The notes below the pieces were generated by a model. It made no database searches. It was not told the DNA's origin and saw only the letters and a list, made by a program, of their open reading frames with translations. Source: Crenothrix polyspora (GTDB lineage: Bacteria > Pseudomonadota > Gammaproteobacteria > Methylococcales > Methylomonadaceae). From it: a stretch of DNA of 41,561 nucleotides. A program made the position numbers and the translations under genes. The number at the start of each line of letters is the position of its first letter. Position 1 is the first letter of the stretch. Below, one piece after another: positions 11,935 to 40,506 of this stretch. Where the stretch lies: the NCBI GenBank assembly GCA_945877505.1, contig CAMDWT010000014.1, forward strand, positions 1-41,561, written 5' to 3'.

Positions 11935-13674
11935 TCAATAAACATCTCTGACGTAACGTTTATCTTTTTTAAGCTGATTAACGTAATCTATAGCTTGTTG
12001 TTCTGAGAGTTGCCCATGCTTACTTATAAGGCTATGCAGCGCCTGATCAACATCTTTTGCCATTCGATAAGCATCGCCACAAACATAGAAATAACCGCCT
12101 TGTTCCAGCCACAAAAACACCTCTGCACCTTGCTCAAGCATTCTATCTTGTACGTAAATTTTGGCTTCTTGATCTCGGGAAAAAGCCAAATCTAAATGCG
12201 TCAGCAAACCAGTTTCTTGGTAACTTTCCAACTCATCGCGATAAATATAATCGGTAGATGCATTTCTATCGCCAAAAAACAGCCAATTTTTACCCGATGC
12301 ATTTCGATATTGACGCTCTTGTAAGAAAGCGCGAAAGGGTGCAATACCGGTACCGGGCCCCACCATTATAATGGGTAATTGATCATCTTCAGGTACTCTA
12401 AACACCTTATTAGGTGTGAAGAAACACCGCACAGGCGTTTCTGTTTCAACTAAGTCAGCCAGAAATGTTGAGCAAACCCCTTTATGCCGACGACCATGAC
12501 TGTCATAACGAACACTAGCTACTGTCAAATGGACCGCTTCAGGATATTTTTTTCCACTGGAAGAAATAGAATAAGCACGGTGCTGTAAGGGCTTTAAAAA
12601 ACCAATAAACTCTGTCGCCGTCAATTCACAGACCGGAAATTGCACTAATAAATCCAGCGTGTCACGTCCCCACAAATAATGCGCTAGCTTTTCTTTATCT
12701 CCTGACTCAATAATGCCATTAAGCGTCTGATCACCCGATCGTATTGCAATCTCTTCAACAAGTTCTTTACTCGGTGTTTTAATTTCAAAATGGTCGCGCA
12801 ATGCAACCTCAATCGTTATTAACTCGCCATTAACGGATACGTCTTCATTACCCTTATAGCCAATCACGTTGATAATTTCAGCGACCAGTTCAGGGCAATT
12901 TGTTGGGACGACGCACAAGGCATCTCCCGCCTCATAACTTAAACCAGAGCCGGACATTGATATTTCGTAATGCCTTGTTTCTTTAGATGATGAGGCATCA
13001 GTCAGTAATCGGTTAACCAATAATTTACCCGGAAACGGATTTTTTCGATGGTATTCTGGCTTATCCGAAGATCGAACATCGGTTTCTGCAATCGAAGTTC
13101 CAGTTCCCCCTGCCATCTGCGGAATAACCGCCGTTATCCAACGCTCTGCTGACTCTTCAAAGTCCACATCACAATCAGTGCGATCATAAATACGCGTCGC
13201 ACCTAGTTCTTCAAGTTTATTATCCCAATCAATACCTGCCTGACAGAATAAGTCATAACTGGTATCACCTAAGGCTAATACCGAATACTTCATGGTTTCA
13301 AGTCTCGGCATGTTTTCTGCACAAACGCTATCCCATAGCATTTGTGCATTATCGGGCATTTCACCTTCGCCATAGGTACTAGTAACGATCAATAAATAAT
13401 CAATGGCTGCCAGTTCAGTCGCTTCAATTTCGTCCATGCCTTTAACCAAAGGCTGTAAACCATAGGCTTTAGCTACTGTGGCCGCATCATTAGCGACGGC
13501 CTCTGCACTACCCGTTTGACTGCCATATAGTATGGTAAGGGTGCGACTAGCTGTTTGAGTCGATATGCCGACACTTTGAAGCATATGCGTGTGCATTCCG
13601 GCAAAAAAACCGCTTAACCACGCACGCTGGCCTTCGCTGTAGGGGGCATCAATTGGGAGTTGAAGTAATTTCAT
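11935..13674 (-). CDS. cysJ: CysJ-type NADPH diflavin reductase (sulfite reductase flavoprotein alpha)
   Basis: Diflavin reductase of 579 aa that passes electrons from NADPH through FAD and FMN to a partner, classically the sulfite reductase hemoprotein CysI. The order is: N-terminal helix PYSEGQRAWLSGFFAG; FMN flavodoxin domain from about residue 46 (ILYGSQTGSAEAV, STYGEGEMPDNA); FAD domain (RAYSISSSGK, GVCSTFLADL); NADPH domain (GPGTGIAPFRAF from residue 439). It ends in KRYVRDVY, nearly the same as the CysJ C-terminus. No cysI or other sulfate-assimilation gene is in the window. It lies 161 bases behind the long glutamate-synthase-like gene in the same direction, so it might serve that enzyme instead. 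An AT palindrome sits in the gap. The start ATG has no clear ribosome-binding site. Confidence 0.85.
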   Translation of the reverse strand: MKLLQLPIDAPYSEGQRAWLSGFFAGMHTHMLQSVGISTQTASRTLTILYGSQTGSAEAVANDAATVAKAYGLQPLVKGMDEIEATELAAIDYLLIVTSTYGEGEMPDNAQMLWDSVCAENMPRLETMKYSVLALGDTSYDLFCQAGIDWDNKLEELGATRIYDRTDCDVDFEESAERWITAVIPQMAGGTGTSIAETDVRSSDKPEYHRKNPFPGKLLVNRLLTDASSSKETRHYEISMSGSGLSYEAGDALCVVPTNCPELVAEIINVIGYKGNEDVSVNGELITIEVALRDHFEIKTPSKELVEEIAIRSGDQTLNGIIESGDKEKLAHYLWGRDTLDLLVQFPVCELTATEFIGFLKPLQHRAYSISSSGKKYPEAVHLTVASVRYDSHGRRHKGVCSTFLADLVETETPVRCFFTPNKVFRVPEDDQLPIIMVGPGTGIAPFRAFLQERQYRNASGKNWLFFGDRNASTDYIYRDELESYQETGLLTHLDLAFSRDQEAKIYVQDRMLEQGAEVFLWLEQGGYFYVCGDAYRMAKDVDQALHSLISKHGQLSEQQAIDYVNQLKKDKRYVRDVY

Positions 13675-13835: not shown

Positions 13836-16800
13836 TCAAGCAGTTTGCTCATTCGATAGGTTCTGAACAATCCCAAGACCCAGAAGTCCGGCTAAATATT
13901 CCTCTATACAAGGAATACCAAGCAACGCTTGTTTATTAATTTTGTCTTGATTCATAATCCAAGCACTGGAACCAATAGAATATATGCTTTGCACCGAGCG
14001 ATTAATTAATGCTGTTTTATAATCATTAAGACGCTTGCTAGCCAATAAAACAGCAAGTTGCTCATCACTGTAATTACTGTATGCTTCACGCGTGCTTTTA
14101 ACCAAAGCATCTTGTAGTTTACGCGGCCTTTCCATGATTAATTTACGCGCACCACGCTCTATTTGATTTTGTGAACGCTGCCCTTCAGGTAAATTTCTCA
14201 ATAAATCTCTGGCCACTTGCTGAGCTTTTTCAAGTACCGCAAAACTATTAACCAGTTTAAAGGTTAACGCTTTGTCATAAGGGCTATGCCCTGGAATTGC
14301 ACCAGAAAATAATGGCTCAGACGTTTTATAGGCTTTTTTGACTTGCTCAATCTGCTGTTGTGCTAACGATTGGGACAATTCTTCAATCATTTCTTTACGA
14401 TCTAGAGATTGTTGCAAATACTGTGTTGCTTGCGTTTTGTATAACCATAAAGGCATAGCAAATTTAAAATGCTTACGCTCTGTCGCCCAGTTTTCAAGTA
14501 ATTCTTTAGCCTTACTGGAATTTGCGTAATCTGCATGTTGTTCAAGCATGGCGAGAATAAACTGTTCATGAGCATGAGCATCATCGGTTTCTTCGGTTAA
14601 GCTATGTAAGGCAACTGACGTTTTATCGTAAAGATTTCCCAATAAATTTTCAGGATCATACTGGTAAGCATTCCCCCCCGACATACCATTACAGAAACCC
14701 TTACCAAAGCCACCAATATTTAAAATGGCGCCATTCGTCATATATTCGCAAGCAAAATCACCAACGCCTTCAACAACAGCCATTGCACCTGAATTTCTAA
14801 CCGCAAATCGGTCACCCGCTTCGCCATTGATAAAGAACTTACCGCCGGTTGCACCAAATAAAGCAAAGTTTCCGATCAATACATTATTGCCAGGTGTTTT
14901 TATACCACCACCGGGCGATTCAACCACTACCGTTCCGCCACAAGCAGACTTGCCAACACCATCATTACAAGTGCCCAAATGCTCCATACGCATGCCATCA
15001 TTTAAAAAGGCGGCATAACTTTGTCCTGCTGATCCATGGGTGCGTATGACTACACTGTCAGGCGCCAAATAACGACGCCCCTGTGGATGGGTGTAAATAA
15101 TTTCAGAATCAGAAACTTGCTGTTCCGTTACTTCATAAGCTAGCAAACGCTCGATATCAATCGAGGCTTGTCCACCAACTGTTTTATTACAGTTATTCAA
15201 TTTAAAAGCATCGCCTTCAATGATAACGTGTGACTGCTTACCTTCAATAATCGAATCTTTAACTTGCTGAATAATCTTGTCATCAACCGTGAAACTGGCT
15301 TCCAGATATACCGGTTTTGAAACAACAACGACCTCTACTTTAGCCAGCATTTTTGTTAAATCTAATTGACCCACCATCGACGGATGCTCAATTAAATGCA
15401 GTAAATCTGTTTTACCACGAATTTCTTGCAAACTTTTGTAACCTAAAACTGACAGTATTTCTCTAACTTCATGTGCCAGATTCATGAAATATTGCGCCAG
15501 AACTCGCGAGTCACCTTTAAATTCTTCATGTTCCGTAGTTAAGCCAGCAGGACATTTTATATTGCAATTTTTCGCCATTACGCAGCGCAACATCATCAAT
15601 ACCGTCGTACCAAATTCAAATGAATCTGCACCTAAAATAGCCGACTTAACAACGTCCAATCCACTTTGATGTGCACCACTACCTCGTAAAATAACTTTAT
15701 TGCGCAAACCATTAACCGCTAAAGCCTGATGAACTTCAGCAATGCCAATCTCGGGTGAACGACCACTATTTTTGAGACTCGTAACCGCCGCAGCACCTGT
15801 TCCCCCAGTATTGCCGGCCACGTTAATCACATCCGCCCCTGCTTTAGCCACACCCACAGCAATTGTGCCTATCCCTTCAGAAGACACTAACTTAACGCCC
15901 ACTTTAACGCGTGCGGCTTTAGCATCATGAATTAACTGCCCCAAATCTTCAATGGAGTAAGTGTCATGATGTGGCGGTGGACTGACTAATTCAACTCTGG
16001 GCGTGCCACCTCGTAAGGCTGCAATTTCTACCGAAACTTTAGCCGCAGGTAATTGCCCGCCTTCACCCGGCTTAGCGCCCTGTGCTATTTTAATTTCAAT
16101 TTCTTTTATATTAGGATCAGCCAAATAACCTGCCCAAACCCCAAAGCGTCCAGAAGCAAACTGTTTAATATTACAAGAACGCAAAGTATTAAAACGACTG
16201 GAGTGTTCACCACCTTCGCCTGAATTACTTAAAGCACCTACGATATTAATACCTTCGGCAACCGCCTCATGCGCTTCGGCAATCAAAGCGCCATGGCTCA
16301 TGGCACCAGAAGCTAAGGTTGCTGTTATTTCATGCGCCGGTTGAACGTCTTTTAAGGCAATCGGCTCTCTAGCCGTTTTGATAGTACTTAAGTATCCGGC
16401 TAACAAGCTATCGCCGTCAGCAACTTTAATAATCAGAACATCGTTTACAACGACACAACTAAATTCAATATCGAAAAAGCGTTTTTTAAAATGCTCCAAC
16501 AATTGCGCCAAACGCTGCTCAGAAGAAGCACTTGCAAATGCAATACTAAAAGTATTGTCAATTGACTTTTCTACGCTTAATCCACGAATCAAATAATTAA
16601 TGTTCCCGCGTAAGTTTTGTTTTCCCAAAATGCGATCAAAATCAGCGGTCGTATTTGCTGAGCATACATCGGCTGGGAAATCCATAATGTCACGAAGCGA
16701 CGCAGGTCTTGAATCACGCTCAAGATAAAGATTTTTCGCAAAACTACGATAAGCCGGTGTAATACCAAAGCTATCAATTTGTTCTGGCGTACGTTTTTCA

Positions 16801-19319
16801 TAACCAGAATCAAGATAAGCGACATCACTGGCAACAGGTGACTGATCCTGAGGTATATATAAAATAGCCTCATCGGTCATATTTATATATTCTCTTACCG
16901 CAGTATTACCATAAGAGTGACCTGCGCCATCCTGACGTTCTTTAAATAAGCCCAAGAACGGAATATCTTTTTCTTCACGAACCGCTAAGGCTTTTTGATG
17001 CCATTCAGTGACGCTAGCAGCGATGTCTGCATACCTTACACCCCCTACTGAAGCATGAATATTAGGGAAATAAGCGTTTAATCGCGGCTCATCAGTATCC
17101 AGATAATTAGACTCAAAAAATTCACCACCAATATAACTTTCTACCGTACACAGACCAAACTTACCCATCGTCTTCATGAGTGACTTTTCTGTGCCTTTTT
17201 GAAACTTATAAAGCACTTTTTCTTGTTCTGCTATTGGATAATGCGTGCTAACACGGTTGTGAACACTAATAGGGCAAATCGCTGACGCGCCAAACCCTAA
17301 TAGAGTGGCGATATCATGTGGGCTTGCTGCTTGTCCCGTCTCAGCGATTAAAGATGAATTAAAGCGTAAACCTTGTTTAACTAAATGCTGATTAGCGGCC
17401 GCAACCATTAATAAAGCCGGAATTGCCGCATAGGTTTGGCTAATATTAATATCACTTAAAATGATAATGCCTATATTTTTTCTAGCTGCTTGTTCGACCT
17501 GCTCGCATACATTTAATAAAGCCGCTTCCAAAATATCTTCATTGCGCTGTACATCGTTAAGATCAGGTTGATAAACCATAGCTAACGTCATCGAACTCAC
17601 GGTGACTTGTCTACGGATTTGCTCTAATTGAGTCCGTTGCAAAATAGGCGTATCAATGACTAATTGCTTACTTAGCTCATCAGAGAATGTAGGCTTTGCG
17701 CCTAAGGCCACGCGCAAAGTCATTCCGTCACTTTCTCGAATTGAATCCAACGGTGGGTTGGTTACTTGCGCAAAACGCTGGCTAAAATAACGTGACATTC
17801 CCCCTTCAGCACTGGACAACGCATTAGGAGCCAATCCATAACCCATCGCTGATACTTTTTCCATGCCAGTTGCCAACATGGGATCCAGCAAAAACTTAAA
17901 GCTTTCCTGATTAAGCGAATAGGCCGTATGTTGCTGATCAACCGTCAAAGGATGTTCGGTGCTAATCTCAGCTAGCTCAACAACAGGTAACTCAGAAAGG
18001 TGAATGCATCGTTGCGCTAATAAAGCTTGATAATCCTGCTCACTAGCCAAGCGATCCATGACTTGATGATTATTGTATGCTTCTCCAGTACTATGATCGA
18101 AGTACAGCATTCCTCCTGCTTCAATTCGACCGCGTCTCAAAATATCTTTTGGCGGAAAATCAATTTGACCCGCTTCTGACATGACGGCCAAATATTCATG
18201 GGTTTCTACTGATCGCAAAGGTCGCAAACCTAAACGATCCAAGCGCGCACCAACACGAATACCATCATTAAAAATTAATGCGGCGGGGCCGTCATTTTTT
18301 TCTTCGTATAGGCTAAAATATTCCAACATCGCACGCACCGCGGGTGACAAAGTCGTGTCATTTTCCCACGCTGGTGGCATCATTGCTAAAACAGCGGTAA
18401 CAATATCCATATCATCTTCATTGATGCGACGTGTCAACGTTTGATCCAAACGACCCGAATCCGATTGCCCACGAGGAAAAATAAGATGCTTATTATGTTG
18501 CCTAGCAATTGCACTTTCACTTAAGCGATTTTTCTTGTCAGTATTTAATTCACCGTTATGCGCCATATAACGAAACGGCTGTGCCATCATGGTGGCAGGT
18601 GCTGTGTTAGTCGAAAATCGAGTATGGAAAAATAAGGTGCTTATTTCGTGGTCGGTATCGTACAAGTCTTTAAAATAAGGTATGACTTCAAATGAATTTA
18701 AACGTCCTTTATAAACCTGAGTTCGTGAACTCATCGATAAAGGATAAAATCCTGTCAATTCAGCACGACTAAAGCCTTCAACTTCTATATCCAGTAAAGC
18801 GGCTTGAATGTGCTTCTCAAAAACCTTATGTGTTGCATTTTTTAAACTATCTGGACGCCCAAATACGCACTGTTTGATAGGTAACTGAGCTTTGACTGAC
18901 GCTTCATTGATAACATCCAAGTCAACAGGAATAGTGCGCCACAAAATAACCGGCAAATCAAAATCTTTAAAGTGGCGTTCAATCAGCTCATTAGCTGCCG
19001 AGTCGTAATGATCGTGATCTTCAGGGAAAAAGAAATTAGCAACGCCAAACTGACCGAGTTCGAGATTATTATTACCCGTAATTTTACGAAAAAAATTAAG
19101 TGATAAATCTATATTAACGCCTGCACCATCGCCTATTCCTTCGGCACTCATTCCACCACGATGGGGAATAGTGCACAAAGCTTCATGGGATTTAACCAGC
19201 AAATCGTGAGTTTGTTTACTTTCTTTGTGAGTGATAAAACCCACTCCGCAGCTGTCCTGCGATAAATCAGCGTTGTAAAGCATAGCGTTTTTATTACCTA
19301 ATCGGGAATTTTTATTCAT
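13836..19319 (-). CDS. long glutamate-synthase-like protein (divergent GltB paralog, 1827 aa)
   Basis: Paralog of GltB, almost 290 residues longer than the neighbouring GltB. The class II glutaminase domain looks intact: Cys24 in SQDSCGVGF (after propeptide removal it would be Cys1), PHRGGMSAEG, and MAHNGELNTD. The synthase domain keeps [36 protein letters not shown] and GNTGGTGAAAV. Two departures stand out. The cluster cysteines are Cys1246, Cys1252 and Cys1256 (CX5CX3C; GltB has CX5CX4C), and [10 protein letters not shown] of GltB reads RGSGAHQSGLD. The beta-helix GXGXG domain follows ([19 protein letters not shown]). From about residue 1632 there is an extra helical tail of about 195 residues that GltB lacks. 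It should release ammonia from glutamine; what it aminates is not certain. It sits after gltD with a 421-base gap, so it probably has its own promoter. Confidence 0.85.
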   Translation of the reverse strand: MNKNSRLGNKNAMLYNADLSQDSCGVGFITHKESKQTHDLLVKSHEALCTIPHRGGMSAEGIGDGAGVNIDLSLNFFRKITGNNNLELGQFGVANFFFPEDHDHYDSAANELIERHFKDFDLPVILWRTIPVDLDVINEASVKAQLPIKQCVFGRPDSLKNATHKVFEKHIQAALLDIEVEGFSRAELTGFYPLSMSSRTQVYKGRLNSFEVIPYFKDLYDTDHEISTLFFHTRFSTNTAPATMMAQPFRYMAHNGELNTDKKNRLSESAIARQHNKHLIFPRGQSDSGRLDQTLTRRINEDDMDIVTAVLAMMPPAWENDTTLSPAVRAMLEYFSLYEEKNDGPAALIFNDGIRVGARLDRLGLRPLRSVETHEYLAVMSEAGQIDFPPKDILRRGRIEAGGMLYFDHSTGEAYNNHQVMDRLASEQDYQALLAQRCIHLSELPVVELAEISTEHPLTVDQQHTAYSLNQESFKFLLDPMLATGMEKVSAMGYGLAPNALSSAEGGMSRYFSQRFAQVTNPPLDSIRESDGMTLRVALGAKPTFSDELSKQLVIDTPILQRTQLEQIRRQVTVSSMTLAMVYQPDLNDVQRNEDILEAALLNVCEQVEQAARKNIGIIILSDINISQTYAAIPALLMVAAANQHLVKQGLRFNSSLIAETGQAASPHDIATLLGFGASAICPISVHNRVSTHYPIAEQEKVLYKFQKGTEKSLMKTMGKFGLCTVESYIGGEFFESNYLDTDEPRLNAYFPNIHASVGGVRYADIAASVTEWHQKALAVREEKDIPFLGLFKERQDGAGHSYGNTAVREYINMTDEAILYIPQDQSPVASDVAYLDSGYEKRTPEQIDSFGITPAYRSFAKNLYLERDSRPASLRDIMDFPADVCSANTTADFDRILGKQNLRGNINYLIRGLSVEKSIDNTFSIAFASASSEQRLAQLLEHFKKRFFDIEFSCVVVNDVLIIKVADGDSLLAGYLSTIKTAREPIALKDVQPAHEITATLASGAMSHGALIAEAHEAVAEGINIVGALSNSGEGGEHSSRFNTLRSCNIKQFASGRFGVWAGYLADPNIKEIEIKIAQGAKPGEGGQLPAAKVSVEIAALRGGTPRVELVSPPPHHDTYSIEDLGQLIHDAKAARVKVGVKLVSSEGIGTIAVGVAKAGADVINVAGNTGGTGAAAVTSLKNSGRSPEIGIAEVHQALAVNGLRNKVILRGSGAHQSGLDVVKSAILGADSFEFGTTVLMMLRCVMAKNCNIKCPAGLTTEHEEFKGDSRVLAQYFMNLAHEVREILSVLGYKSLQEIRGKTDLLHLIEHPSMVGQLDLTKMLAKVEVVVVSKPVYLEASFTVDDKIIQQVKDSIIEGKQSHVIIEGDAFKLNNCNKTVGGQASIDIERLLAYEVTEQQVSDSEIIYTHPQGRRYLAPDSVVIRTHGSAGQSYAAFLNDGMRMEHLGTCNDGVGKSACGGTVVVESPGGGIKTPGNNVLIGNFALFGATGGKFFINGEAGDRFAVRNSGAMAVVEGVGDFACEYMTNGAILNIGGFGKGFCNGMSGGNAYQYDPENLLGNLYDKTSVALHSLTEETDDAHAHEQFILAMLEQHADYANSSKAKELLENWATERKHFKFAMPLWLYKTQATQYLQQSLDRKEMIEELSQSLAQQQIEQVKKAYKTSEPLFSGAIPGHSPYDKALTFKLVNSFAVLEKAQQVARDLLRNLPEGQRSQNQIERGARKLIMERPRKLQDALVKSTREAYSNYSDEQLAVLLASKRLNDYKTALINRSVQSIYSIGSSAWIMNQDKINKQALLGIPCIEEYLAGLLGLGIVQNLSNEQTA

Positions 19320-19740: not shown

Positions 19741-21186
19741 TCACCTAGGCAGCTCTGACGATCCCATTAAATACTCATCAACCGCTCTAGCCGCTTGCCG
19801 ACCCTCGCGTATTGCCCAAACCACCAACGATTGTCCTCGCCTGCCATCACCCGCAGCAAAGACTTTATCAACAGACGTGCTGTAATTTTTTTCATTGGCT
19901 TTAATTTGACCTCGCCCATCCAGTTCAACACCAAGTTGTTGCAATAAGCCTTCATGCATAGGATGAACGAAGCCCATGGCCAACAAAACCAAATCAGCTT
20001 CTAAGGTAAAATTACTATCTAGTTTTTCACTCATCTTCCATTGACCATTCTCCTGCTTCCACTCCACTTCGGTCGCATTTAAATGCGTTATAACGCCATC
20101 CTTCCCCGTTATACTTTGAGTATTAGCACTCCAATAACGATGCTTTATACCTTCATCATGCGAACTAGTCGTGCGGAGCTTATTAGGCCAGTTTGGCCAG
20201 GTGAGTGACTTATTTTCTTTTTCGGGTGGTTGTGGCAGAATCTCAAGCTGAACCACCGAAATCGCGCCTTGCCTTATTGATGTGCCAATGCAATCAGACC
20301 CCGTATCCCCGCCCCCAATAACGACAACATGCTTACCTTTAGCAGAAATAGCACTATCATCTGCAATGGTATCACCCGCTACACGCTTGTTTTGCTGACG
20401 CAAAAAATCCATTGCAAAATGAATACCCTGATAATCATTGCGACCGACAACCTCTAAATCACGTGGCTTTTCAGAACCAATAGCCAATACGACCGCATCA
20501 TACTCAGTGAGTATTTTTTGCACAGAAACATCTTTACCGATATGACTGTTAGGTCTAAATCGAACCCCTTCGGCTTGCATCTGCGCAATACGTCGATCAA
20601 TATGCGTTTTTTCCATCTTAAAATCTGGAATACCGTAACGCAATAATCCGCCGATACGATCATTCTTCTCGTAGACAAAAACCTCATGTCCTGCACGCGC
20701 CAGTTGTTGCGCACAAGCCATACCCGCAGGTCCCGAACCTATTACTGCAACTCGCTTCCCCGTTCTTTGTGCGGGAATCATCGGTTTTACCCAACCCATT
20801 TCCCAACCTTTATCAACAATCGCTCGTTCTATCGACTTAATGGTCACAGGTTGATCCGTTAAATTAAGCGTACAAGCGGCCTCACAGGGTGCAGGACAAA
20901 TGCTGCCCGTAAACTCAGGAAAATTGTTAGTACTATGTAAAACAGCCAATGCCTCTTGCCAATCCCCTCGATAAACACCCTCATTCCATTCTGGAATAAT
21001 GTTGTTTACCGGACAGCCCTGATGACAAAAAGGAATCCCGCAGTCCATACATCTTGAGCCTTGTTGTGCCATTTCTGCATCACTGGGCGCAATTATAAAT
21101 TCTCTATAATGCTGAATACGCTCACTGGCTGCTTCATAGCGTCGCTCAGTCCTTGATAGCTCCATAAATCCGGTTGGTTTGCCCAT
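19741..21186 (-). CDS. gltD: glutamate synthase small subunit (NADPH)
   Basis: Beta subunit of NADPH glutamate synthase, 481 aa. It oxidises NADPH at FAD and sends electrons through iron-sulfur clusters to GltB. The N-terminus carries the cysteine clusters [14 protein letters not shown] and CPAPCEAAC. The FAD-binding motif is [18 protein letters not shown] and the NADPH-binding motif is [13 protein letters not shown]. The C-terminal FAD contact is [18 protein letters not shown]. Length and motif order are standard. It follows gltB by 68 bases on the same strand, the usual gltBD operon. GltD could in principle also serve the long GltB paralog downstream. Confidence 0.95.
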
Positions 21187-21254: not shown

Positions 21255-24200
21255 TTAGCAGGACGCAGTAGCTTGTTCTTCCTGAATTTGTTTAAGTGCT
21301 GCTCGATAGTCAACGGGCATCACTTTAATAAATCGTGGTAAATAATCATGCCAATTCTCTAAAATATACCTCGCTTTTGGGCTACCCGTATAATGCAGAT
21401 GATTTTGAATTAAATGCTTCAAACGCCGAGCGTCATGACGTGTCATATCAGACATAATATGGACTCGACCATGCATTTCTAGATCACCACCCTGATGCGC
21501 AAGATTTTCTAAGGATTCGTCTTCTTCTGGAATGGGCTCTAATTCAACCATAGATAAGTTACATAACTGATCAAAGTTGCCTTCTTTATCCAAAACGTAG
21601 GCTACGCCACCGGACATGCCTGCGGCAAAATTTCGTCCCGTTTTTCCGAGCACGACCACAACACCCCCTGTCATATATTCACAACCATGATCGCCCACAC
21701 CTTCTACAACGGCAATGGCGCCAGAGTTGCGCACCGCAAAACGTTCACCCGCTACACCATTAAAATAACATTCACCGCTAATCGCTCCATAAAGCACAGT
21801 ATTACCAACAATAATATTGTCCTCTGGATTAATAGGACACTCCTTAGGGGGATAAATAGCAATACGTCCACCACTCATACCCTTGCCCACATAATCATTA
21901 CCTTCACCTTCAAGCGCAATACTAATTCCCTGCGCTAGAAAGGCACCGAAACTCTGCCCAGCAGTTCCTTTTACATGAATAGCGATCGTATCTTCAGGTA
22001 AACCTTTATGCCCATAACGCTTGGCAACTTCACCCGATAACATCGCACCAAAAGTACGATTAACATTTTTAATTGGCGTATTGATTACCACCGCTCGGCC
22101 ATTTTCCAAGGCTGGCTGAGCTTGCGCAATCAAGCTATGATCCAACGCCTGCTCCAAGCCATGATCTTGATGCTCACAATGAAAAACAGCCGTATCACTC
22201 CCGACATCTGGCTTGTAAAAAATACGGCTAAAATCTAGCCCTTCTGTTTTCCAATGTGAAACTGCACGGCGGACATCCAGCTTATCTGAGCGCCCAATCA
22301 TGTCGTCAAAACGACGAAAGCCCAACTTTGCCATCCATTGACGGACATCTTCGGCGACCATGAAAAAGTAATTAACAACATGATCAGGCTGCCCGGTAAA
22401 ACGCTTACGGAGCTCAGGATCTTGTGTAGCCACACCGACCGGACACGTATTTAAATGGCATTTTCGCATCATCAAACAACCCGATACAATCAAAGGCGCT
22501 GTTGCAAAGCCAAATTCGTCTGCCCCTAACAACGCGCCAATAATAACATCACGTCCAGTACGCAAACCGCCATCTACTTGAACAGCAATACGTCCCCGTA
22601 ACTTATTAAGCACCAAGGTTTGATGCGTTTCAGCCAAGCCAATTTCCCAAGGTAAGCCGGCGTGTTTAATCGAACTCATGGGACTTGCACCTGTGCCTCC
22701 ATCATAGCCCGCAATCGTAACATGATCAGCATGAGCTTTAGAAACCCCTGCCGCTACTGTGCCCACGCCCACTTCAGACACCAATTTAACGCTAATGCGT
22801 GCTTGAGGATTAACATTTTTTAAATCATGAATAAGTTGCGCTAAATCTTCAATCGAATAAATATCATGATGGGGGGGTGGCGAGATTAAACCCACACCTT
22901 GTGTCGCATGACGGACTTTAGCAATAACCGCGTCGACTTTATGACCTGGTAATTGTCCACCTTCACCCGGCTTAGCACCTTGACTGATTTTAATTTGAAT
23001 ATCATCCGCATTAACCAAATATTCCGTCGTCACACCAAATCGACCAGAGGCGACTTGCTTAATCGCAGAGCGCATAGAATCCCCATTCGGCAAGGGCTTA
23101 AAGCGCTCCGGCAGTTCTCCACCTTCCCCAGTATTTGATTTTCCACCGATACGATTCATGGCGATTGCCAACGTCGTATGTGCTTCGTATGAAATTGAAC
23201 CAAAAGACATCGCGCCGGTTGCAAAACGCTTAAGAATGTCAGTAACCGACTCGACCTCTTCCAACGGAACGGGAGTGGCGTCTTCTTTAAACATCATTAA
23301 GCCACGCAATGTTAGTAACGCTTCGTTTTGCTCATCAATTAAACGACAAAAATCGGCATACCCTTCTGCGCTATTGGTGCGTGTAGCCTGTTGCAGCGTA
23401 GTAATAGTTGCAGGCGTCCATGTATGGGCTTCACCTCGTATCCGAAAAGCGTATTCCCCACCAATATCCAACGCATGCTTATATAAAGGCGCATTACCAT
23501 AAGCCAGCCTGTGGCGGCGTAAAGTTTCTTCGCTTATTTCTGGCAAACCAGCCCCTTCAATCGTACTGGTTGTTCCCGTGAAATAGCGATCTAAAAAGAC
23601 TTCAGATAAACCGATAGCATTAAAAATTTGCGCACCACAATAAGACTGATACGTTGAAATGCCCATTTTAGACATCACCTTCAATAGACCTTTAGAAACC
23701 GCTTTAACATACCGCTTATGCGCTTCATATTCTGTGAGTTCAGGCATCTCTTTGCAAAGGACAGAAAGCGTATCAAACGCCAAATAAGGATTTACCGCTT
23801 CCGCACCATAAGCAGCCAATAATGCAAAATGATGAACTTCTCTGGCCTCACCCGTTTCAATAACCAAGCCGACTTTGGTACGCAATCCCTCTTCGGTAAG
23901 ATAATGGTGAACCGCCGACGTTGCTAAAAGTGCTGGAATTGCGACATGAGACGCACTCAAATCACGATCCGAAAGAACAAGGATATTATGTCCTTCTTCA
24001 ACCGCTTTTTTAACCGCAAAACATAGCTTATCAAGAGCGCCCTCCATCCCCGTGACACCCAAATCAGAAGGGTAACAAAGGGTAAATGTTTTAGTCTTGA
24101 ACGCACCACCGGAACGGGCTTCAATGCGACGAATTTTCTCAAGATCCTGATTAGTTAAAACCGGCTGTTCCACTTCTAATCGCATGTGCGTTCCACCCTC

Positions 24201-25874
24201 ATCCAACCCTAATAGATTAGGACGAGGACCTATCAATGAAACCAAAGACATAACCAATTCTTCACGAATCGGGTCGATAGCGGGATTAGTCACCTGGGCA
24301 AAACCTTGCTTAAAATAATCATACAACAGCCGAGGGCGTTGTGACAAAACAGCTAAAGCGGTATCAATACCCATTGAACCTATAGCTTCTTGCCCCGTTT
24401 GCGCCATTGGTTTTAAGATGAATTCTATATCTTCACGGGTATATCCAAACGCTTGTTGCCTATCCAAAAGCGTTGCTGCATCAGGTGCCATGGCTGAAAT
24501 TTCAGCGGGTAACTTGGAAACCAAGATACGGGTTTTATCCAGCCATTCTGAATAAGGTGAATGCGTTGACAATTCTGCCTTCAATTCTGAGTCATCAATA
24601 ATACGTCCTTGTACCGTATCAATCATTAGCATTTTCCCGGGCTGCAAGCGCCACTTTTTAATGATTTTATGCTCAGGCACCTCCAACACGCCCATTTCTG
24701 AAGCCATAATCACAAAATCATCATCCGTAACCAGATATCTCGCTGGACGCAATCCGTTTCTATCTAATGTAGCCCCAATTTGACGTCCATCCGTAAAAGC
24801 AATAGCTGCCGGACCATCCCAAGGCTCCATGAGGGCTGCATTATATTCATAAAATGCCCGCAATTTTTCATCCATCAAAACATTGCCGGTCCAGGCTTCA
24901 GGTATCAGTAGCATCATGGCATGAGCCAATGAATATCCACCCGCCACTAATAATTCAAGAGCATTATCAAAACAGGCTGAATCAGATTGTCCTTCAGCAA
25001 TTAATGGCCAAAGCTTATGAACATCGTCACCCAATACTTTCGATGCGATTGAATGCCGACGGGCAGCCATACCATTCAAATTTCCTCGCAAGGTGTTGAT
25101 TTCACCATTATGCGCAATCATACGAAAAGGATGAGCCCTATCCCAAGTCGGAAAAGTATTAGTGGAAAAACGCTGATGGACCAATGCCAATGCGCTATCC
25201 ATAAGCTCATCGTTAAGGTCAGGGTAAAATGGACCAACTTGGTTCGCTAGCAACATCCCTTTGTAGACTATCGTTCGAGTCGATAAGGAGGCAATATAAA
25301 AGTCATTACCCTCTTTTAAGTTTGCATCACGAATGGCGTTTTCAACTTGCTTCCGAATTACAAACAACTTACGTTCAAAAGCATCTTGATCAAAACAATC
25401 TGCACCTCGACCTATAAAAACCTGCCTTATAAAGGGTTCAACCCCTTTTGCCGACTCACCCAGTTCTTGGTTATCTACAGGAACATCACGCCAACCCAAT
25501 AACACCGCTTTTTCTTGTGTAATAACGTTGGCAATCACTGCCTCGCAACTAACTCGACTCGCTAGTTCCCTAGGTAAAAAAACCATACCGACTGCATATT
25601 CCCCCTCTTTGGGCAGGATTAAATCTTGTAACTTACATTGTGCACGTAAAAATACATCGGGGATCTGTATCAAAATGCCTGCACCATCACCCGCAAAAGG
25701 ATCAGCACCCACCGCTCCACGATGCGTTAAATTCCTGAGTAACTCTAAGCCCTGCTTTACTATTGAATGACTTTTGCAACCTTTGATATGAACGATAAAA
25801 CCGACTCCGCACGCATCATGTTCATGGCGTGGATCATATAAACCTTGTCTAATGGGTAGCGTATTTTGATTCAT
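21255..25874 (-). CDS. gltB: glutamate synthase large subunit
   Basis: Alpha subunit of glutamate synthase, 1539 aa, converting glutamine plus 2-oxoglutarate to two glutamates. A 21-residue propeptide precedes the catalytic nucleophile Cys22 ([11 protein letters not shown]). The amidotransferase domain continues with [10 protein letters not shown] and [12 protein letters not shown]. The synthase domain has [32 protein letters not shown] and [10 protein letters not shown]. The 3Fe-4S ligands are Cys1133, Cys1139 and Cys1144 (CX5CX4[15 protein letters not shown]). The GXGXG beta-helix ends the protein. The start follows a GAGGA ribosome-binding site. It is the first gene of the gltBD operon and diverges from ubiF. 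Confidence 0.97.
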
Positions 25875-37570: not shown

Positions 37571-38698
37571 TTACTTAACTAAGCTTAACAAAACACCTGC
37601 GGCGACAGCAGAGCCAATTACACCAGCCACATTTGGCCCCATGGCATGCATTAATAGAAAATTATGAGGATTACTTTCCAGTCCTAATTTATTTGCAACT
37701 CTTGCTGCCATCGGAACCGCAGATACTCCTGCCGCACCAATCAAAGGATTAATGGGCGTATCACTAAATTTATTCATGATTTTTGCCATAATAACACCGG
37801 AGGCTGTACCAATAGCAAAAGCAACAGCACCTAGCGCCAGAATACCTAATGTTTCTATTTGCAAAAAAGCATGGGCACTCAATTTTGAACCGACTGCCAA
37901 CCCCAAGAAAATGGTAACTATATTTATAAGTTCATTTTGTGCTGTCTGACTTAAGCGATCAACAACACCACAAGCATTCATTAAATTTCCCAAGGCAAAC
38001 ATGCCGATCAAGGGCGTCGCAGAAGGCAATAACAAAATGGACAATAGCAATAACATCAAAGGAAAAACAATTTTTTCAGTCCTACTAACTGGACGCATTT
38101 GCTGCATTTCAATTTTGCGCTCATCTTCCGTCGTTAATGCACGCATGATAGGTGGTTGAATTAGAGGGACCAAAGCCATATAGGAATAAGCTGCCACTGC
38201 GATAGCACCCAGCAAATCCGGCGCTAATTTTGACGCGACATAAATAGCAGTAGGTCCATCTGCACCACCGATAATACCAATCGCCGCCGCATCTTTTAAA
38301 CTAAACTCTAAACCTGGCACAGCATTAAGCGCCAGTGCACCTAACAAAGAAGCAAAAATACCAAATTGTGCGGCTGCACCTAAAAGCAATGTTTTAGGAT
38401 TGGCTAACATGGGACCAAAATCAGTCATTGCTCCTACACCCATAAAAATGAGCAAGGGGAAAATCCCTGTTTTAATACCAAAATAAAGATAATATAAAAT
38501 ACCACCCTCTTCGGCAATACCCGCAACCGGTATGTTGCTAAGAATAGCGCCAAAGCCTATTGGTAATAATAACAAGGGCTCAAAGCCTTTTTTAATTGCT
38601 AGAAACAATAACAAAAAGCCAACCAGCATCATAAAAGCTTGTCCACCGGTGAAGTTATATAAACCAGTGCTTTGCCAAAGTGAAACCAAATTTTCCAT
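37571..38698 (-). CDS. oadB: oxaloacetate decarboxylase beta subunit (Na+ pump)
   Basis: Integral membrane subunit of 375 aa that decarboxylates carboxybiotin and drives Na+ export. Signature segments are [40 protein letters not shown] and, around the essential Asp, [21 protein letters not shown] second conserved segment is [20 protein letters not shown] near the end. About nine to eleven membrane helices are expected. It is 26 bases behind oadA and 41 bases ahead of gloB. The pump couples oxaloacetate breakdown to sodium motive force, and the reverse use is possible in some bacteria. Confidence 0.95.
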
Positions 38699-38724
38699 AA
38701 AATGTCTCTTGATTATTTCCGTTT

Positions 38725-40506
38725 CTAAAAAGAAATCAATGCATTACCACCAGCAACTGCACCGCCTTCCTTGATATTAACAGCGGTTACGGTACCCGAA
38801 AATTTAGACCGTACTTCTGTTTCCATCTTCATGGCTTCCATAATTACCACTACTTCGCCTTCCTCAACGACACTACCTACATCCACTAATATTTTTAGTA
38901 TATTTCCTGCCATAGGCGCGTAAACGACAGACCCATTGCTGACAAGTTCTACTTGGCTTTGTTCAACAACTGGCTGTATAAGTAATGCCGCACCAACTGG
39001 GCCAACCGTGACATTGAAGTTTCTTCCATCCACATTGACCGTATACGTTTCTGCAACACCGACACTCGTTACCGCTTTTTTCTCATCGCTAAGCGTGGCA
39101 ATCGCGTCATCTGGGCCTGTTTCAAAAGCAGAGGGATTACCACGATTAACCAGAAACTTCCAGCCTACTTGGGCAAACATTCCATTAATTAAAGCATCCT
39201 CTTCAATATTTTTTGCGAGCTTTACACCCTCAGCTTTTGCTTTTTCTATTACTTCAGCCATCAGCTTATCCATTTCTGGCGCTATTAAATCTGCAGGACG
39301 ACACGTAATAGGTTGCGAACCGTTTAAAACTCTGTCTTGTAACTCTTTATTTACCGGCGCAGGTGTTGCTCCATACTCACCTTTCAAGACGCCAGCCGTT
39401 TCCTTAGTAATTGTTTTATAACGTTCACCCGTCATGACATTCATAACAGCTTGTGTGCCAACGATTTGAGACGTTGGTGTTACTAATGGAATAAATCCCA
39501 AATCTTGTCGGACACGAGGAATTTCAAGCATGACCTCATCAAACTTATCAGACGCACCCTGCTCTTTAAGCTGACTCTCCATATTAGTCAACATACCACC
39601 CGGCACTTGCGAAATCAGAATGCGACCATCGACACCTTTAAGACTTCCTTCATATTGAGCATACTTTTTTCGAATACCTCTAAAATAATGCGCAATTTCT
39701 TCCAACTTAACTAAATCTAAACCTGTTGCGCGATCAGTCCCTTCAAGACTAGCCACTATTGTCTCAGTAGCACTATGTCCATAAGTCATACTCAGCGATG
39801 AAATTGCGGTATCAACATTGTCGACTCCCGCCTCTGCTGCCTTAATAATAGTACCTACGCTTAGACCCGTTGTTGCATGGCAATGCAAATGAACCGGAAT
39901 TTTAGTACTCTTCTTTAATCGGCTAATTAATTCAAAGGCGTCATAAGGCTTAAGTAATCCAGCCATATCTTTGATACAAATAGAATGCGCGCCCATATCT
40001 TCAATCTGTTTACCCAGATTTACCCATGCATCCATCGTATGGACTGGACTGGTTGTGTATGAAATAGTGCCTTGCGCATGAGCGTCTGTATTGAGTACGG
40101 CTTTAACTGCGCGCTCAATATTACGCATGTCATTCATGGCATCAAAAATACGAAAAACATCCATCCCGTTGACAGCACAACGTTCTACAAATTTATCAAC
40201 AACATCATCTGCATAATGACGATAACCGAGAATATTTTGACCTCTAAGCAGCATTTGTTGCGGCGTTTTAGGCATCGCTGCTTTTAAAATCCGCAATCTT
40301 TCCCATGGATCTTCGCCTAAATAACGAATACAGGCATCAAAAGTTGCGCCACCCCATGACTCAATTGACCAATAACCTATTTGATCAAGTTTTTCACAAA
40401 TGGGTAGCATATCTTCTATGCGTAAGCGAGTGGCTAAGATTGATTGATGAGCATCTCTCAACACTACTTCAGTGATAGCTAGTGGCTTTTTTTTCTCTTT
40501 GGCCAT
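38725..40506 (-). CDS. oadA: oxaloacetate decarboxylase alpha subunit (biotin-dependent)
   Basis: Cytoplasmic carboxyltransferase of 593 aa that moves the carboxyl group of oxaloacetate to biotin. The HMGL-like TIM barrel begins [12 protein letters not shown] (metal-binding Asp) and has [11 protein letters not shown] (catalytic Lys) and [11 protein letters not shown] (metal His pair). A PYC/OADA domain follows. A proline- and valine-rich linker leads to the biotinyl domain at the end, with Lys560 in IMEAMKMET. It could be confused with methylmalonyl-CoA or pyruvate carboxylase subunits, but oadG and oadB beside it settle the call. It follows oadG by 109 bases. Confidence 0.95.

Follow-up and report, generated by a model that had tools for sequence, protein, structure and literature searches.

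The window analysed here is a whole stretch of 41,561 nucleotides, contig 14 of a Crenothrix polyspora genome (G000) that belongs to a set of Methylobacter-like genus members (G000-G015). On its minus strand it carries, in this order, canonical gltB, canonical gltD, a gene for a relative of GltB and a gene for a CysJ-type diflavin reductase, with a gap of 161 bp between the last two (Table 1). According to Pfam, the GATase_2, central, Glu_synthase and GXGXG domains are all there in the GltB relative, in that order, and its solved relatives among the PDB matches are glutamate synthases only, namely those of A. brasilense, Synechocystis and entry 7mfm, which we take to be the B. subtilis enzyme. 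Since the NF008730 profile is passed by only 7 bits, the oddness of this protein is hidden from automatic annotation. Compared with canonical GltB it has an insert of about 100 residues ahead of the FMN domain and a C-terminal extension of about 200 residues; neither of these, nor the adjacent diflavin reductase gene, had figured in the original prediction. At gathering thresholds, Rfam returned no match in the window. Elsewhere in the window lie a gene resembling FAD-dependent monooxygenases (PF01494; 26216-27433), a type that is also a frequent divergent neighbour of gltBD or of the new pair in other loci (L036, L042, L044-L047, L050, L051, L096, L097, L115 and L125), and genes for an oxaloacetate decarboxylase-type biotin subunit and a sodium-pump beta subunit (37571-40506).

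Table 1. Features of the gltBD and GltB relative-reductase region, in window positions
Feature	Position	Strand	Basis
GltB-like large subunit, 1827 aa	13836..19319	-	NF008730 1053.9 bits, cutoff 1047
CysJ-type diflavin reductase, 579 aa; proposed electron donor subunit	11935..13674	-	Flavodoxin_1, FAD_binding_1, NAD_binding_1
Class II glutamine amidotransferase domain, residues 24-432, Cys24 nucleophile	18024..19250	-	PF00310
Central domain of GltB relative, residues 463-737	17109..17933	-	PF04898
Family-specific insert, about residues 880-985	16365..16682	-	Alignment; without counterpart in canonical GltB and without Pfam match
FMN/synthase domain, residues 980-1294	15438..16382	-	PF01645
RGSGAHQSGLD, FMN-side strand, in place of [10 protein letters not shown]	15654..15686	-	Motif alignment
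CX5CX3C cluster ligands Cys1246, 1252, 1256	15552..15584	-	Motif alignment
GXGXG domain, residues 1413-1579	14583..15083	-	PF01493
C-terminal extension, residues 1627-1827, predicted all-helical	13839..14441	-	Structure model
Flavodoxin-type FMN domain of diflavin reductase	13144..13533	-	PF00258; GSQTGSAE at residue 51
FAD-binding domain of diflavin reductase	12463..13053	-	PF00667; RAYSISSS
NAD(P)-binding domain of diflavin reductase	12046..12366	-	PF00175; GPGTGIAPFR
Canonical gltD, context; missing from many relatives' genomes	19741..21186	-	TIGR01317 712.1 bits
Canonical gltB, context	21255..25874	-	Domain and equivalog profiles

The original prediction had drawn attention to the cysteines of the iron-sulfur cluster, and its residue numbers are reproduced exactly: in the GltB relative Cys1246, Cys1252 and Cys1256 (CVMAKNCNIKC) are spaced CX5CX3C, whereas the neighbouring canonical GltB has CX5CX4C ([12 protein letters not shown] from Cys1133). 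The rewriting that it had described in the strand near the FMN is likewise confirmed, with RGSGAHQSGLD beginning at residue 1212 in place of [10 protein letters not shown] at residue 1100 of GltB, and the glutaminase motifs that it had listed as kept are located at residues 24 (Cys), 53 (HRGG) and 253 (AHNGELN). Cys24 opens the GATase_2 match and aligns to residue 1 of 1EA0, the place of the N-terminal nucleophile. The CX5CX3C spacing occurs in all 25 family members that were gathered independently of this motif (14 genus loci, with L005 and the fragment L016 left out, six loci found via the C-terminal domain and five plasmid loci), whereas each of the 13 canonical GltBs has CX5CX4C; the shorter spacing is thus due neither to chance nor to sequence error. 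It had been suggested that CX3C be sought among proven glutamate synthases, and the five distinct solved sequences (three forms from A. brasilense, that of Synechocystis and 7mfm) all turned out to have CX5CX4C, as do five short GltB relatives that consist of the FMN domain only.

At the FMN strand the family motif is LR[C/G/V/A]SGAHQ(S/T)GxD, with variations, against DGG(L/M)(K/R)TGxD in canonical GltB, where variants such as DGKLMTGRD and DGQMKTPRD indicate that some change is tolerated. A cysteine takes the position of Gly1213 in no fewer than 33 of the 57 rows of a family alignment, seven rows of which fell outside the search pattern; part of the rows, those from the loci of the genome scan described below, had been selected via the CX3C motif. 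Positions 972, 978, 992 and 1013, in the numbering of 1OFD, are kept in 57 of the 57 rows and position 903 in 54, the remaining three having gaps there. We take the Synechocystis residues in question (E903, K972, Q978, R992 and E1013) to be 2-oxoglutarate contacts or residues that couple the two sites. Residues 917-938 of the Synechocystis enzyme, presumably its ferredoxin loop insertion, have no counterpart in the GltB relative when it is aligned with the solved chains.

The insert is predicted by AlphaFold to consist of alpha/beta elements, with block pLDDT values mostly of 79-91 and one block at 63, in a model of residues 740-1827 that has a mean pLDDT of 65 and is poor in the FMN barrel. 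Modelled separately, the C-terminal domain is all-helical with a pLDDT of 83, and a comparison of this model with the PDB returned no relatives at E <= 0.001. DUF3500 was considered as an identity for the extension and set aside, its match being weak and below the cutoff. The CX3C spacing, the insert and the helical extension are probably adaptations to the diflavin reductase partner, and a cluster spacing that goes with the partner, together with the extra domains, would agree with a new surface for docking.

The family, represented by a subset of 12 rows, forms a single clade (99/98) on a branch of length 1.58 in a tree of the FMN domain, opposite which ferredoxin-type and NADPH-type enzymes are intermixed; support for the canonical group is weak (55/64), and the tree program warned that outgroup and family are both long branches. 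The fallback offered by the original prediction, that the protein is just a second GltB, is therefore wrong in that the clade lies deep and apart from both NADPH- and ferredoxin-type enzymes, subject to the same long-branch warning. The protein is a member of the GltB superfamily that belongs to neither the GltBD type nor the ferredoxin type.

The reductase of the window keeps its FMN, FAD and NADPH motifs, finds its best PDB match in a sulfite reductase flavoprotein and is 40% identical to E. coli CysJ; its TIGR01931 score of 632.2 bits lies below the cutoff of 668.15 for CysJ equivalogs. Reductases paired with the GltB relative form a clade of their own (100/99; 16 rows against five, the branch of E. 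coli CysJ being long). Sulfite assimilation was considered as the role of this CysJ-like protein and rejected: CysI scores above its cutoff in only one of 25 genomes (G007), where it stands beside a second, separate cysJ, and not in G000, and this near absence means that sulfite reduction by CysJI does not account for the reductase. The remaining CysI matches are weak, fall within other reductase-like frames and occur with or without the pair. In G007 the order on contig C50 (L169) is a cysJ fragment followed by cysI, additional to the GltB-paired reductase.

The two genes keep company well beyond the window. A genome scan gave 529 confirmed stretches, the best 80 of which were taken as loci; 66 of these are assigned to Methylococcales, Methylococcaceae or genera of methanotrophs, the labels of the other 14 go no further than proteobacterium, gammaproteobacterium or mussel methanotrophic symbiont, and the named loci nearest to the window are from Methylococcales, including Methylobacter. 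Among these best 80, the reductase lies downstream on the same strand within 1.5 kb in 67 loci, in 63 of them within 200 bp, with a median gap of 82 bp. Thirteen of the 80 have no nearby reductase, five of which lie some 200 bp or less from the end of their contig, the other eight having room downstream (kilobases in seven, 883 bp in L096). All eight genomes with such room encode a reductase elsewhere, at 67-72% identity, further along the same contig in the case of L125, L127 and L131; altogether it was found in 10 of 10 genomes tested for unlinked copies, two of which have intervening genes only. Within the genus set, all 11 carriers of the GltB relative have the reductase (in G009 as a contig-end fragment only), and the five genomes without the relative, two of them 76-83% complete, show no reductase match better than E 6.5e-5. 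A few loci contain split genes, the GltB-like gene being broken into three ORFs in L080 (4843-10337; Methylocucumis oryzae Sn10-6, in whose genome GltD was not found) and into two in L101 (6321-11785); in L122 it is the reductase gene that is broken in two. These are either draft-assembly errors or decayed genes.

Outside Methylococcales, a search with the C-terminal domain gave strong matches in G334, G188, G747, G764, G567 and G461, from five other gammaproteobacterial families, and the reductase is directly downstream in all six loci. The family is uncommon, given that a phylum-wide sample yielded strong matches (>190 bits) in six of 398 genomes, our own included, all of them Gammaproteobacteria. 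Nine of 217 matching plasmid records are full-length at >50% identity, and in the five loci that were checked (Sinorhizobium BG8, Shinella, Neorhizobium, Ketogulonicigenium and Tsukamurella; the other four records are again from Shinella and Ketogulonicigenium) the reductase is the next gene, the gaps ranging from -4 to 16 bp and including a 4-bp overlap in two loci. The Tsukamurella reductase matches the FAD and NADPH patterns and not the FMN-loop pattern, which the other four plasmid copies do match. As a control we inspected five more distant GltB matches: in three the following gene is annotated as gltD, a fourth has no gltD annotation, and the fifth lies in an unannotated stretch.

The two genes also share much of their history. 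Trees of the partners from 17 pairs have six of 14 splits in common (permutation mean 0.27, maximum 3 in 1000), one of which, supported by 100/100, separates Methylococcales together with G188 and G461 from a mixed group of gammaproteobacteria, alphaproteobacteria and an actinomycete. Partner distances correlate with r = 0.94 across the 17 pairs (permutation maximum 0.46 in 1000), a correlation that in part reflects common descent. Eight of the 14 splits differ between the trees, some of them well supported on both sides, and the linked history may owe something to joint descent as well as to joint transfer. For this comparison the plasmid reductases were taken from annotated coordinates, with the exception of the unannotated Sinorhizobium one, for which a mechanical ORF was used.

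Neither GltD (E <= 1e-60) nor canonical GltB was found in 16 of 20 carriers tested, or 15 of 19 distinct ones, because G288 and G798 are one genome; short FMN-domain-only relatives (in G797, G334 and G461) were excluded from the GltB count. Completeness is stated for eight of the 20, and the six of these eight that lack both proteins are all 99-100% complete. Carriers of this kind include Methylotuvimicrobium buryatense 5G, where no glutamate synthase large subunit other than the GltB relative of the pair was found, and likewise Methylobacter luteus, Methylobacter marinus, Methylomicrobium sp. wino1 and Methylovulum psychrotolerans; GltB and GltD accompany the pair in G334, G461, Crenothrix sp. 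D3 and Methylobacter sp. KS41. The glutamate synthase of the pair is thus the only one found in many of these methanotrophs. These observations bear on a competing explanation, namely that the protein is an ordinary second GltB which uses GltD, shared with the neighbouring gltD, and that the diflavin reductase is an unrelated neighbour. Such an arrangement would agree with the adjoining gltD in the window and with the NF008730 score above cutoff, but we regard it as very unlikely in view of the carriers without GltD, of the separate clade, and of the fact that across classes and phyla the next gene is that for the diflavin reductase and not gltD. The suggestion that the protein might have a different electron donor is, on the other hand, well supported by a dedicated CysJ-type reductase that is genetically tied to it and by the missing GltD in these 16 carriers.

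In three 99% complete genomes, G006, G008 and G021, the pair and GlnA are present and neither canonical GltB nor GltD was found. Our search for glutamate dehydrogenases covered the families PF00208 and PF05088; it found no PF00208 member in G006 or G008, the two of the three to which the search for that family extended, and no PF05088 member in any of the three. In G008 and G021 the flanking genes of the pair are syntenic with the window and the gltDB block is missing; in G006 the contig ends inside the GltB relative. More broadly, a search of the 16 genus members G000-G015 gave no PF00208 enzyme over cutoff in 15, with G010 marginal, and a PF05088-type enzyme is present in G013 and G018 and not in the other eight of ten genus genomes searched. 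Much of the Methylobacter-like genus seems to lean on the GS/GOGAT route. Because the genome of the window also holds canonical GltBD, the pair could be auxiliary there.

Both a different acceptor and a regulatory role had also been envisaged by the original prediction. A glutamine-dependent synthase with an acceptor other than 2-oxoglutarate and the same diflavin donor might perhaps explain why the FMN-strand motif is rewritten and the cluster spacing altered. We nevertheless consider it very unlikely: the presumed 2-oxoglutarate contact residues are invariant where aligned, 16 of 20 carriers showed no GltB-like large subunit besides this protein, and in two near-complete genomes no glutamate dehydrogenase of the PF00208 or PF05088 family was found. 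On the same grounds, the five kept contact or coupling residues and the sole large subunit, a regulatory role is unlikely as well.

Published work on isolates touches on the same question. The available part of the M. buryatense 5G genome paper names glutamate and alanine dehydrogenases, as well as glutamate synthase/glutamine synthetase without detail (PMC3695433). For M. alcaliphilum 20Z, Table 3 of a paper available in part, citing a PhD thesis, gives 14 nmol/min/mg as the activity of an NADPH-linked glutamate synthase, and a glutamate dehydrogenase activity of 3-4 is tabulated alongside (PMC5802761); on addition of ammonium, GOGAT transcripts of this strain went up and those of GDH and GS went down, according to an excerpt of another study (PMC6570963). 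Since glutamate dehydrogenase is reported in some isolates, the pair is not necessarily the sole means by which these make glutamate. A connection of the 20Z activity with the enzyme of the pair is suggestive only.

Taken together, we argue that the GltB-like and CysJ-like proteins are very probably the two subunits of one diflavin-reductase-dependent glutamate synthase. Gene pairing, linked inheritance, the missing GltD and canonical GltB in many carriers and the conserved motifs are observed; from these we infer a physical complex, its reaction, its electron path and its cluster type. The altered FMN-strand motif and the loci in which the reductase is not adjacent speak against this reading. 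As in an ordinary glutamate synthase, and going by the conserved domains and residues, glutamine would be hydrolysed at Cys24 and the ammonia channelled to 2-oxoglutarate at the FMN site. Electrons would pass from NADPH to FAD and then FMN on the reductase, and from its flavodoxin domain to a putative three-cysteine Fe-S cluster, the FMN of the synthase and finally 2-iminoglutarate, in a delivery modelled on that of CysJ feeding the Fe-S centre of CysI. In the normal enzyme, as described in an accessible portion of PMC8097209, the path runs from NADPH via FAD and the two [4Fe-4S] clusters of GltD to the [3Fe-4S] cluster and FMN. The diflavin reductase would thus stand in for GltD and its two [4Fe-4S] clusters. 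A variation on this scheme is that the synthase depends on ferredoxin or flavodoxin and that the diflavin reductase merely re-reduces this soluble carrier, for which it may be said that the reductase is at times unlinked and that flavodoxins are general electron carriers. This appears unlikely to us, however, given the unmatched ferredoxin-enzyme segment 917-938 and the position of the GltB relative outside the branch of ferredoxin-dependent enzymes; moreover, the reductase carries an FMN domain of its own, so that a separate carrier would be unnecessary.

The proposed two-subunit enzyme combines features of three known systems. With GltBD (A. brasilense 6S6X/1EA0, E. coli, 7MFM) it shares the four large-subunit domains, the N-terminal cysteine, the presumed 2-oxoglutarate residues, three cluster cysteines and, presumably, NADPH as reductant; it differs in its CX3C spacing, FMN-strand motif, insert and C-terminal extension, and in that its paired gene encodes a CysJ-type reductase instead of GltD, even though gltD is present in the genome of the window. 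Like the ferredoxin-dependent enzyme of Synechocystis (1OFD), its large subunit would work without GltD, but it lacks the 917-938 counterpart, has a dedicated NADPH diflavin reductase gene and falls in a separate clade. The FMN-FAD-NADPH architecture of the reductase and the proposed delivery of electrons to a partner's Fe-S cluster recall CysJ of CysJI; unlike CysJ, this reductase has a GltB relative as its partner, groups in another clade at 40% identity to the E. coli protein, and is found in a genome (G000) without CysI over cutoff.

Glutamate synthase is a central enzyme of nitrogen assimilation and, to our knowledge, the bacterial enzyme has been described with two electron inputs, GltD or ferredoxin. 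A literature search, which worked on titles and the beginnings of abstracts and left most subscription journals outside its coverage, found no description of the GltB relative with its diflavin reductase or of such a donor. Many methane-eating bacteria appear, as far as their genes tell, to make glutamate via a glutamate synthase with a sulfite-reductase-like flavoprotein as electron donor in place of the usual small subunit. We consider it likely that the pair represents a separate class of glutamate synthase with a CysJ-type diflavin reductase as its electron input. Its two-gene module is found in Gammaproteobacteria, in Alphaproteobacteria and in one or more actinomycetes, and it would serve many methanotrophs, industrial as well as environmental, as their main glutamate synthase. 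If true, a third electron input would change the textbook classification, alter the accounting of cofactors and Fe-S clusters in metabolic models of methanotrophs and correct the annotation of a misnamed pair, whose plasmid members currently figure as 'glutamate synthase-related protein' or gltB and as 'sulfite reductase (flavoprotein) subunit alpha' or cysJ. One may speculate that an enzyme without the two [4Fe-4S] clusters of GltD would cope better with copper, oxygen or a shortage of iron, to the benefit of copper-hungry methanotrophs. Touching on this idea of iron and copper, and possibly by chance, siderophore uptake genes lie near the pair on the Ketogulonicigenium plasmid (L177, 17071-21367) and the copper resistance genes copC/pcoD near that on the Neorhizobium plasmid (L176, 19403-20658).
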